A stretch of DNA of 64,000 nt from NCBI GenBank assembly GCA_903901045.1, contig CAIUPP010000010.1:1-64000 (forward strand), read 5' to 3'. The notes beneath the pieces were generated by a model. The model was not told the origin of the DNA, did not search any database, and saw nothing but the letters and a program-made list of their open reading frames with translations. Origin of the DNA: an uncultured Planctomycetota bacterium (lineage in GTDB: Bacteria; Planctomycetota; Brocadiia; CAIUPP01). Every line of letters starts with the position of its first letter. Within the stretch, counting starts at the first letter, position 1. Of this stretch, positions 26,602 to 31,135 are shown piece after piece. Made by a program: the position numbers and the translations under genes.

Positions 26602-26636
26602 CGCTTGACAGGCGCGGATGAAAGGCCCTATGATTC
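26602..26636 (+). repeat. Direct repeat, left copy (contains a promoter)
   Basis: A 35-base segment matching 31101-31135 at 30 of 35 positions by eye: a 16-base identical block CGCTTGACAGGCGCGG, five mostly different bases, then AGGCCCTAT, one change, ATTC. The pair brackets the helicase-nuclease gene. Confidence 0.8.
26605..26634 (+). promoter_or_regulatory. Predicted promoter of the helicase-nuclease gene
   Basis: TTGACA (26605-26610), 18-base spacer, TATGAT (26629-26634). Strong boxes. The leader to the start at 26752 would be about 110 bases. Confidence 0.6.
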
Positions 26637-26751
26637 GGCTGGAATGGACGAGGCAGGACAACCAATCGGCCGTTAATGTAGAGTCGCGTGAACGGGAACT
26701 GCGAATGTGGGCATACGGACGTGCATCACACCGGCAGGGAAGCAGAAACAT

Positions 26752-29700
26752 ATGCCGCGAAATGGGCAGATTCTTCAGAATCTTATTCGACGTCTTCATG
26801 CCTCGGTCAGCCGTAGTCCTATCTTGCGAGCTACGCCAAGCAGAACGGGGCGGCTGATTGATTGCTCTCGCTTCAAGGTGGTCTCCCCGTCTGTGCCACG
26901 CGAACTCATCGGGAAATTGTTAGACGGCACTGGTGCCGTAACAGCGAATTTCTCACCGCAAAGGGATAGCCGCAAAGACGATCGCCAGGAGTTGGATTTG
27001 CTATACGCCATCCTGACGAAAGGCATTGTGCGCCACGCCGAGCTTGCGAAACGCGAAACTGGCGTGCATGCCATGTGGTTTGGCTACCCGCTTCTGTTCG
27101 CCCGAGTCCCAGGTCTGGAGGCAACACAGGAAATCCTGGCGCCGGTATTTCTCTGGCCCATTTCCGTTGCGCCTGACTTGCGGAACGAATGGCGCGTGCG
27201 CATTTCCCGTACGTCCCCTGACATCCGTCCCCGTTTTAACTTGCCTATGGCCGCATGGCTGCGGCGCCAGTTCATGATAGAGGTGGACCCGCTCACTGAA
27301 GATGAGCTGGAAGACCTAGACTTCGCCGCTGTCAACCGTCACGTCACACGAATTGCAAAACAATTCGACCGACGTCCCGACGTCGCCCTCTCTGACGCCC
27401 TTGTTCGTGTGCCATCACTCAAGACGTTAGCAGATGATGACAGTCCGGCCGTATTCAACGCAGCCGTTATGGGATACATGACGTGGCAGAACGAAGCCCT
27501 ACTGGCGGATTTGGAATCCATATGCTCTGAAGCAGATGCGTGCCAAGGCCCTGTTGCGGGATTCTCCTTTGGGGAGCAATTGCCGGAACCGCGACGGGCA
27601 GCGCCTCCGCCTGAGCAAGACAGGTTCGTTGTATGCGACGCCGATTTCTCGCAGACTCAAGTCATATGGCAGTCACGAGAGGCGCCCGGATTAGTGGTCC
27701 ACGGTCCACCGGGTACTGGGAAGTCGCAGACCATCGTGAATATCATCGCTGACACATTGGGGCACGGTCGCACAGTTCTCATGGTTTGCCAAAAACGAGC
27801 GGCCACGCAAGTCGTCCTGGAGAGACTTCGCGCGGTTCAACTTGACGCTTTGTGCATTGAAGTGCATGACGTGGATGCAGATCGCCTATCCACCTTTCGT
27901 GCGATTCGCTCACAAGTTGACGCTCTGGATGAGGGCCCCCCGGGGGGCGTGACAAGTCACAGGTCCTCACTTTCAGAACAGATAACAAGCATCGAGGACG
28001 AACTCGATCAGCACGCATCGGCGCTGCACTCTTTGCACTCAGAGATAGGCCTATCATATCCGCGGATTTGCTCTGGGCAAGCGCGCGTCATGCGACAATT
28101 TCCGACAGTCCGCGAACTCCGCGCCGTTTCGGCGGCATGCCTCCATCTCTCTTCTCAGAAGATTCAGAATGTCTGCGAAAGAGTCTCAACGATGGGCAAA
28201 CTCTTTCGTCAGGCTGACCCATTGCATAATCCATGGCGGCATCGGATTGCGGATATCCGCCTGACGCCAGGTCTGCTAGTTGATGTAAAGGAGACAGCAG
28301 CTCACCTGCATGCTTTGAATAGGCTACACCAACAGGTGATTGCATCCACAGGAATCGGTCTCTCCCTCCCTGCCAATATTAATGGTTTTGCGGAAGACGC
28401 GCAGGAAGTCCTTGCATGGTGTCAGCGCATGGTCGCCGAGCCTAGTCCTTCGTTGAAGCGCGTTACGAAGGCATGGATACGGATATTGCGAGACGCTGAC
28501 GCCCAAACCATTGCCCAAGAGGAGGCACGCTGCGCAACTGTATCCTCGTTAGCGAAGGATGTCGGCGCATCGCAAGTGGTGCCTGAAATTCGGCGCTATT
28601 TCGAAGCGCTCTCCATTGAGCAACTTCTGTTCATCCGACAGCAGGTCGCGCACTTCTCGGCGATTCGAAACAAGTGGTGGCGCTTCCTTAGTTCACGTTT
28701 TTGGGATGGCCGGACAAAGGTCAACAACCTTCGGAGGCAGACCGGAGTTGTTCTCACCAATGATCAGATCGTGTCCAGCCTTCTTGGAATGATAGCTCGG
28801 CGAAAACTACTCCAACTCAACGAATTACTAATTCCTGGACTGCGCGCCGGTGACTCCAGCGACGAGAAACAGATGCGCTTCGCGTCAGTGTGTCAGGCGG
28901 GCATCGCATGCGCCACCACATGGCTTGTCCTCGAGCGGAAAGCTGTGTGGCTAAGGCCTTTTACTGATGCGTACATCGCAGGGGAAACGGATGATCGTCT
29001 AAACGTATTGATGGACACAACTGAGAGCACACTACAGCGTATCCCACAAGTACAGTTGTTGATGCAAGGCTTGAAGTCAGTGGAGAGCTTCTTGAATCCA
29101 CTTGCACTTGACGCACCTCGCGACGACATTCTGTCGGGGAAGGATATCGGTTCATGGATTTCGGCATTTGCAACCGGGGTGTCCGGACTGCGGGCGTTAA
29201 CGGCACTCGATGCCGATCGCGAACAGAGACAAGGCGCGATCAAAACGATTTTGGATGCCCTTGAGGAGTATGAAAGACTTCTCGGCGAGAACAAACGTGC
29301 GCCACAACCACCTCCGGACATCAAAGATGACGACTACGGCTCCTGGTGGGCGGCACTGCTTGAGTACAGCGCGCTTTGTACATGGCAGCGCCTCCTGGAG
29401 GCGGAGAGTCCCATTCTAACGCGCCTGACTCCTGTGGAACACGATAATAAGGCCAAGCGGCTCAAGGAACTTCTGGCGGAGAAACGCAAGTCGGAGCCTC
29501 CCACTATCCTCGCCAAGTGGCGAAAAGAGCAATCTACACTACGCACTAAGCCGTGGAACCGAATCTTCCAACTAAGGGGATCTCAGAACGGTCCTTCGAA
29601 GCGCCTCCGGGAAGCGATTGAACTTGGTTTGCCGGAAGGTCTGCTTACAATGCGGCCATGTTGGCTGATGAACCCATCGGTTGCCGCGCAGGTATTTCCA

Positions 29701-31086
29701 CTCGCTCAAGGCTTGTTCGACGTGGTGATATTTGACGAGGCGTCACAGTGCCCGCTGGAACAAGCCATCCCGTCAATCTATCGAGGCAAAACCTTGATTG
29801 TATCGGGTGATGAAAAGCAGCTACCACCTACGAGTTTCTTTTCGTCACGAATCGAATCGGAGGAGCAGGCTGAAGACGATGAAGAAGCCGTTCAAGAGGT
29901 CGTCCGCAATGACGAACGCAGGCGGGCACGGTTAGGCACTGAATTCATGATGCAGTCTGAGGACCTTCTGACAGCAGCTGTCGGAACTCTTCAGGAACAT
30001 TGGCTCCGTGTTCACTATCGCAGCGAACACCCGGACCTCATTAATTTCAGCAATCATGCCTTTTACGCAGGGCGACTGGAAGCCCCCCCTGTTGCGCGCA
30101 AGCCGAGTTTTCAACCCATTATTTATCACCACCTGGATGAAGCTTACGAGAACCGAACTAATGAAGGCGAGGCTAAGAAGGTCATAGACTTGCTCGGCAC
30201 ATTTTGGAGTTCGGGCAAGCCCAGTCCATCCATCGGGGTTGTCACCTTCAACCAACCACAACGAGGCCTGATCCAGGACTTGATTCTAAAGCGCTGTCAA
30301 CAGGACGCTCGTTTCGCAGCAAGGTTCCAGCAAGAAATGGAAAGGCGTGACGACAGGAACCAAGACGCCAGTTTCTTCGTTAAGAATCTTGAGAATGTGC
30401 AAGGCGACGAACGCGACATCATGATTTTCAGCACAACGTTTGGCAAGGATACAGATGGCCGGTTTTACAGACGCTTTGGCCCAGTGGGTGCGCGCGGCGG
30501 TGAACGGCGCCTCAATGTAGCTGTCACACGAGCCAAGAAGCAGATTATTGTCGTTGGAAGCATGCCCATACCTGAGGTGTCCACGGCTCTATACGCTGGC
30601 GATAATGCCCCCGGCGCTGGGTTCACGCCGGCAGGTTACCTGCAACTCTACCTTGCGTATGCTCAATCAGTATCTGCGTCCAACGGCGAAACGACGACAG
30701 GCATACTTCAGCGCTTTCACAGCCAGGGTACGAATGTACAGCCTGTCGGAGACACTGAATCACCGTTCGAGGAAGATGTCTTGGAGGCAATACAGAGGAT
30801 GGGATACACGGCACATGCACAAGTGGGAGACGGCGGATTTCGCATAGACTTGGCCATTCAACACCCCAACCCAGAGCGCGGATATGTTCTAGGCATCGAA
30901 TGTGACGGGGCAACTTACCATTCCGACCGATCAGCACGGATTCGCGACGTGTGGAGAGAGCAGATTCTTCGTTCTCGCGGGTGGGCGTTGCACCGCATTT
31001 GGAGCACTGAATGGTGGTACAACCAAGCCGAAGAACTTGACGCCCTCAACGGTGCCATACGAGAGGCAATTGCGCTGCACCTGTAG
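26752..31086 (+). CDS. SF1 helicase fused to PD-(D/E)XK nuclease (DUF4011/Hhe-like)
   Basis: 1444 residues. The N-terminus ([20 protein letters not shown], then GRLIDCSRF) resembles DUF4011. Walker A is GPPGTGKS at about 318-325; Walker B and motif III are VIFDEASQ near 990 and [11 protein letters not shown]. Later helicase motifs are [28 protein letters not shown] and [14 protein letters not shown] (about 1250). The end, from [11 protein letters not shown] near 1336, is a Vsr/MTES_1575-type endonuclease with DLAI and GIECDG catalytic acids. Related single-gene helicase-nucleases are known anti-phage systems. GC content is clearly lower than on both sides, indicating transfer. A GTG at 26707 is an alternative start. 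Confidence 0.88.
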
Positions 31087-31100
31087 TGCGATTTTCGCTG

Positions 31101-31135
31101 CGCTTGACAGGCGCGGCGCATAGGCCCTATCATTC
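31101..31135 (+). repeat. Direct repeat, right copy (contains a promoter)
   Basis: The partner of 26602-26636, starting 14 bases after the helicase-nuclease stop and ending 19 bases before the amidotransferase start. It is most simply the original promoter of the downstream gene. Confidence 0.8.
31104..31133 (+). promoter_or_regulatory. Predicted promoter of pabA/trpG-apgM
   Basis: TTGACA (31104-31109), 18-base spacer, TATCAT (31128-31133). Spacing and flanks equal those of the promoter at 26605-26634. The start codon lies 22 bases downstream, giving a very short leader. Confidence 0.6.

Follow-up and report, generated by a model that had tools for sequence, protein, structure and literature searches.

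The window analysed here, a 64,000-nt stretch of Planctomycetota DNA, holds an uninterrupted open reading frame on the + strand (26707-31086), in which homology to the copy in a second genome of the class (G001) places the start at ATG 26752 (MGRNTRILDHLIRRL), giving a helicase-nuclease product of 1444 aa (Table 1). The gene looks foreign by its GC content (GC 0.549 and GC3 0.569, where eight further window genes have 0.60-0.68 and 0.72-0.91). An initial annotation had described a single low-GC gene, which our analysis bears out, and had called it an island standing alone beside the replication origin. It does stand alone, in that no PADLOC match was obtained in the ten neighbouring genes and no defence genes were found beside it, but a single gene is not an island. 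Its stop lies only 68 nt from the start of pabA, and dnaA begins ~2.5 kb downstream, directly preceded by DnaA-box-like sites (two exact and one near, window 32979-33243) that mark a possible origin. Because DnaA-box counts over the whole window are at chance level, adjacency to the origin is rated as no more than plausible. A divergently transcribed gene at window 24964-26472 (~502 aa, GC3 ~0.8) has no Pfam match.

Table 1. Features of the helicase-nuclease locus (window coordinates)
Feature	Position	Strand	Basis
Left repeat copy, with sigma70-like promoter TTGACA-18-TATGAT at 26605-26634	26594..26636	+	Repeat search, pattern search
Whole gene: compact DUF4011-like / SF1 helicase / MTES_1575 nuclease, 1444 aa	26752..31086	+	ORF, Pfam, start from homologue alignment
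Divergent DUF4011-like N-terminal domain, ~residues 1-255	26752..27516	+	DUF4011 match in clade members, structure model
Walker A, GPPGTGKS, residues 318-325	27703..27726	+	Alignment of 72 relatives
Largely helical insert separating motifs Ia and II of the helicase, ~residues 396-960	27937..29631	+	Split AAA_11, model helices
Walker B, DEAS, residues 995-998	29734..29745	+	DEASQ in 72/72 aligned rows
Second RecA-like domain, AAA_12, two helicase motifs, residues 1081-1270	29992..30561	+	Pfam AAA_12, E 2.6e-22
MTES_1575 (Vsr-like) nuclease, residues 1339-1435	30766..31056	+	Pfam, E 9e-34; consensus site EDEDH
Right repeat copy, presumed native pabA promoter TTGACA-18-TATCAT at 31104-31133	31093..31135	+	Repeat search, pattern search
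pabA/trpG-type amidotransferase, flanking housekeeping gene	31155..31766	+	Pfam GATase, 1e-58

Pfam searches of the product recovered AAA_11 (E 8e-16), AAA_12 and MTES_1575, in agreement with the SF1 helicase and C-terminal Vsr-type nuclease that had been proposed for it, and matched neither DUF4011 nor DUF3320. All helicase motifs are intact, GPPGTGKSQ being present in all 72 aligned relatives except for one row without residues at the site, and the nuclease-site residues E1340, D1366, E1383, D1385 and H1390 are all kept. The closest solved helicases by sequence profile are IGHMBP2, SEN1 and UPF1, together with the helicase-nuclease DNA2, and the motor is a UPF1/DNA2-type SF1 helicase. IGHMBP2, SEN1, UPF1 and DNA2 are 5'-3' translocases. 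The AAA_11 match is broken into two stretches by ~560 residues, which the AlphaFold model renders, at modest confidence, as mainly helical. For the N-terminus, a DUF4011-like start had been suggested, and this is probably right in a divergent form: DUF4011 is matched in 20 of the 22 members of the protein's clade (described below) at E <= 0.001, two close relatives passing the 22.2-bit cut-off (L030 at 28.3 and L033 at 24.2), and we therefore regard the N-terminus of the window protein as DUF4011-like. The structure models are of modest confidence overall (pTM 0.49 and 0.36), but locally the N-terminal domain is modelled fairly to well (residues 31-240, pLDDT mostly 70-92). A fold search with the N-terminal model gave no reliable structural match; since this model came from a longer chain and not from the isolated domain, the result does not imply a novel fold.

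Only ~20 residues follow the nuclease in the window protein. Across 72 proteins including this one, tails beyond the nuclease fall into two length classes, with 34 proteins at 11-48 aa and 38 at 126-298 aa. In a helicase-only tree the window protein falls within a 22-row set composed solely of tail-less proteins (SH-aLRT 99), and nearly all tailed proteins, including those resembling Hhe and ProA, lie on the opposite side of the midpoint root. This clade comprises Planctomycetota and Gammaproteobacteria, spans at least two phyla and has tails of 11-36 aa after the nuclease; 20 of its members have DUF4011 and 21 the nuclease, but none has DUF3320, as against 15 of 19 tailed proteins in which Pfam detects DUF3320. 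The absence of DUF3320 noted initially is thus a property of all 22 clade members. The region that matches DUF3320 has been described as two winged helices (Anantharaman et al., PMC3710099). The bimodal tails and the position of the tail-less clade on the tree argue that the DUF3320-free layout is a stable architecture and not a local truncation. One clade member, from a Gemmataceae MAG (L032:7871-15664), carries a Ser/Thr kinase (residues 445-701) fused before DUF4011, helicase and nuclease in a single 2597-aa frame; this domain scores 179 bits against the kinase segment of Mokosh MkoA, and a protein of 1551 aa showing methylase-like and SNF2-helicase-like matches is encoded nearby.

Searches against models of defence systems placed anti-phage families nearest to the window protein. 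The best PADLOC model was PDC-S37 (PDLC05009), with 622.6 bits and E 4.7e-187 when PADLOC's own coverage rule is not applied; Hhe scored 301 bits. PDC-S37 is a single-gene phage defence candidate of PADLOC-DB, for which our literature search found no paper using the name. It shares with the window protein the form of a single long helicase-nuclease, but the best stretch covers positions 285-1343 of its 1550-position model, so that the model start and the last ~200 positions are absent from the match. Against NCBIfam, ProA (NF058533) reached 620.8 bits and Hhe (NF042953) 458.1 bits, far under the curated NCBI equivalog cut-offs of 1500 and 2000 bits, and identification as either was rejected. 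Relatives in other genomes come nearer to these models, with 1187-1209 bits on Hhe for L084 and L082 and 1387 bits on ProA for L081. ProA has the same order of helicase followed by MTES_1575 nuclease, although the first ~640 and last ~200 of its 1903 model positions lie outside the best stretch; the source paper for 'ProA' as an anti-phage protein was not found in our literature search. Hhe (PDLC02194 in PADLOC) likewise combines an SF1 helicase and a Vsr-like nuclease in one protein, has a DUF4011-type N-terminus that the window protein probably shares in divergent form, and carries a C-terminal DUF3320 (winged-helix) tail, whereas the window protein is ~350 aa shorter than the model, is without DUF3320 and sits on a separate branch of the tree. 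No mechanism paper was found in a literature search on Hhe and DUF4011. There are further likenesses to an architecture that Anantharaman et al. (2013; PMC3710099) described for MTES_1575, in which an SF1 helicase is again fused to a Vsr-type REase. That protein also contains a HEPN domain, a transglutaminase and a pair of winged helices that overlap DUF3320, none of which Pfam finds in the window protein. Mokosh (MkoA, MkoC) has a related SF1 helicase part (~100 bits), but Pfam finds here neither the Ser/Thr kinase of its type I nor the PLD nuclease of its types I and II, the nuclease being MTES_1575. We therefore file the protein as a putative variant of the DUF4011 helicase-nuclease kind that is neither Hhe nor ProA; of the earlier suggestion that it was of Hhe type and possibly a variant, the second half survives.

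The distribution of the gene is patchy. A full-length homologue was found in only one of the 74 other genomes of the class (75 including the host), and this is therefore no housekeeping gene of the clade. The initial annotation would have been refuted by a clade-wide housekeeping helicase of native GC, and neither the distribution nor the GC content of the gene bears that out. That genome, G001, is the sole family relative compared, and its copy (49% identical) is on another contig at a different site; the order pabA-apgM-dnaA is kept there (identities 77, 56 and 64%), the helicase gene not adjoining. A genome scan recovered eight loci in Planctomycetota and Gammaproteobacteria (Thiotrichales, Thiomargarita, Venteria). 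Horizontal acquisition of the window gene is well supported because of this patchy, cross-phylum spread, the different site and the foreign composition, which together fit a horizontally moving single-gene trait. No consistent defence partner emerged from the neighbourhoods of relatives.

The gene is flanked by a 43-nt direct repeat (26594-26636 and 31093-31135), 35 positions of which are identical (81%). The pattern occurs only twice in the 4.77 Mb genome, even with three mismatches allowed, and its score of 24.6 compares with a maximum of 13.7 in 300 simulated flank pairs. The ends that the initial annotation gave to the locus, 26602 and 31135, fall on this repeat, which it did not mention. 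A promoter-like TTGACT...TACGAT precedes pabA in G001, at the place equivalent to the right repeat copy. Plausibly, insertion duplicated the pabA promoter region and left the helicase gene under the control of the left copy. In another planctomycete (G333), a perfect 32-nt direct repeat (L077:6817-6848 and 10949-10980), present in just two copies in that genome, flanks a tail-less clade member of 1251 aa with GC 0.574 against 0.652 in its surroundings; a search for an empty site found no relative with the same flank. These two cases, with scores of 24.6 and 32.0, are the sole convincing ones among 73 genes, and when genes are ranked by how far their GC falls below that of the adjoining DNA, both are in the top five. 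Flanking repeats as a rule of the family were rejected, since only two of the 73 genes score >= 18, and among 172 shifted control intervals one also does (18.9). At the low-GC members L068 and L078, looking for repeats over a longer range found nothing closely flanking the gene. A process resembling transposition may have produced the repeats, as may duplication or the recombination of a circular molecule at a short stretch of homology.

Conservation differs between the two enzymatic parts. Across the 72 proteins there is almost no variation in Walker A, Walker B or motif VI, while 37 hold the full nuclease set E-D-E-D-H and the other 35 an incomplete one. Within the window protein's 8-member subclade only it and L028 retain a complete site; the other six have lost one or more residues, and nuclease action therefore cannot be essential to every member. 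The G001 copy, the nearest relative of the window protein, is among those with lost residues. GC relative to the surroundings is lower in those tail-less members whose nuclease site is intact (Mann-Whitney p 0.0007), but under phylogenetic pairing too few pairs were informative (median p 0.625), so that a link between nuclease loss and GC is suggestive only. A speculative scenario, which we think improbable as a whole, would make the tail-less clade a one-gene cassette, without a recombinase of its own, that enters between long target-made direct repeats (here duplicating, and so gaining, a promoter), and whose settled copies then lose the nuclease and keep the helicase for another role.

What does the protein do? 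On present evidence it is fairly probable that the window gene encodes a stand-alone helicase-nuclease defence protein, with phage or mobile-element DNA as the most likely target, and it is probably a shortened form of proteins known to defend against viruses, without their usual tail. The observation behind the initial annotation is confirmed and its interpretation as likely anti-phage defence partly supported. In favour of defence stand the best-scoring models (PDC-S37, ProA and Hhe), all anti-phage, the complete helicase motifs and nuclease-site residues, the patchy spread, atypical GC and differing site, and the MkoA-like kinase of L032. Against it weigh the lack of defence genes beside the gene and of a consistent defence partner beside its relatives, the eroded nuclease sites in its subclade, a core DUF4011 gene in another bacterium (see below) and the modest confidence of the structure models. 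The domain layout and the horizontal gain of the gene are shown, and we infer defence, the substrate, the direction of translocation and the cutting. Defence by a single helicase-nuclease protein is established for Hna (PMC13381803) and Nhi (PMC12904381); Hna is a ssDNA exonuclease that is autoinhibited at physiological ATP and stimulated by phage SSB (PMC13381803). By analogy with Hna, we suggest that the protein uses ATP to track along the DNA of an invader and cuts it with its Vsr-like domain. The DUF4011-like N-terminus and helical insertion would help to recognise or hold invader DNA, whether as free ends, as forks or as single-stranded intermediates of replication, the UPF1/DNA2-type motor would move along it at the expense of ATP, and the C-terminal Vsr-fold nuclease would then cut, such that the invader genome is destroyed or the infected cell killed. 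With no DUF3320 winged-helix tail, target choice in such a scheme would have to rest on the N-terminus and insertion.

A horizontally gained, DNA2-kind repair or genome-maintenance enzyme acting on host DNA rather than on invaders would suit the profile matches to DNA2 and UPF1-type helicases, and also the preservation of helicase motifs in essentially all relatives when nuclease-site residues are often lost. Moreover, Pseudomonas aeruginosa has a DUF4011 gene in its core genome (PMC10250203), and the superfamily is therefore not all accessory. We nevertheless regard such a role as unlikely, given the lone full-length homologue elsewhere in the class, its different place, the foreign GC of the window gene and the anti-phage character of every best-scoring named family. 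Marginally less likely again is defence against plasmids or transposable elements and not phage. Relatives are almost absent from phage records, where one partial match was found, and none was among 52 pattern matches in viral contigs; superfamily relatives do occur on 314 plasmid records (224 of them from Klebsiella), 193 of the 314 being predicted to be conjugative, a pattern suggestive of conflict among mobile elements. The plasmid matches, however, cover at most about half of the window protein and are superfamily members outside its clade, and the named families are described as anti-phage. That this is a truncated, decaying Hhe or ProA gene which lost its DUF3320 tail at this locus is very improbable, for the missing domain and low Hhe and ProA scores would agree with it but the same short tails recur throughout a clade of at least two phyla, the frame is open with every motif intact, and pabA begins just 68 nt beyond the stop.

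Our analysis defines a compact, DUF3320-free branch of Hhe/ProA-type helicase-nucleases. As the current named models score this branch below cut-off, annotation pipelines would miss or mislabel it. That the winged-helix tail is dispensable in nature raises the question of which part of these proteins recognises the invader. Finally, the unique flanking repeats in two genomes make the movement of single defence genes without a visible mobile element a testable proposition.
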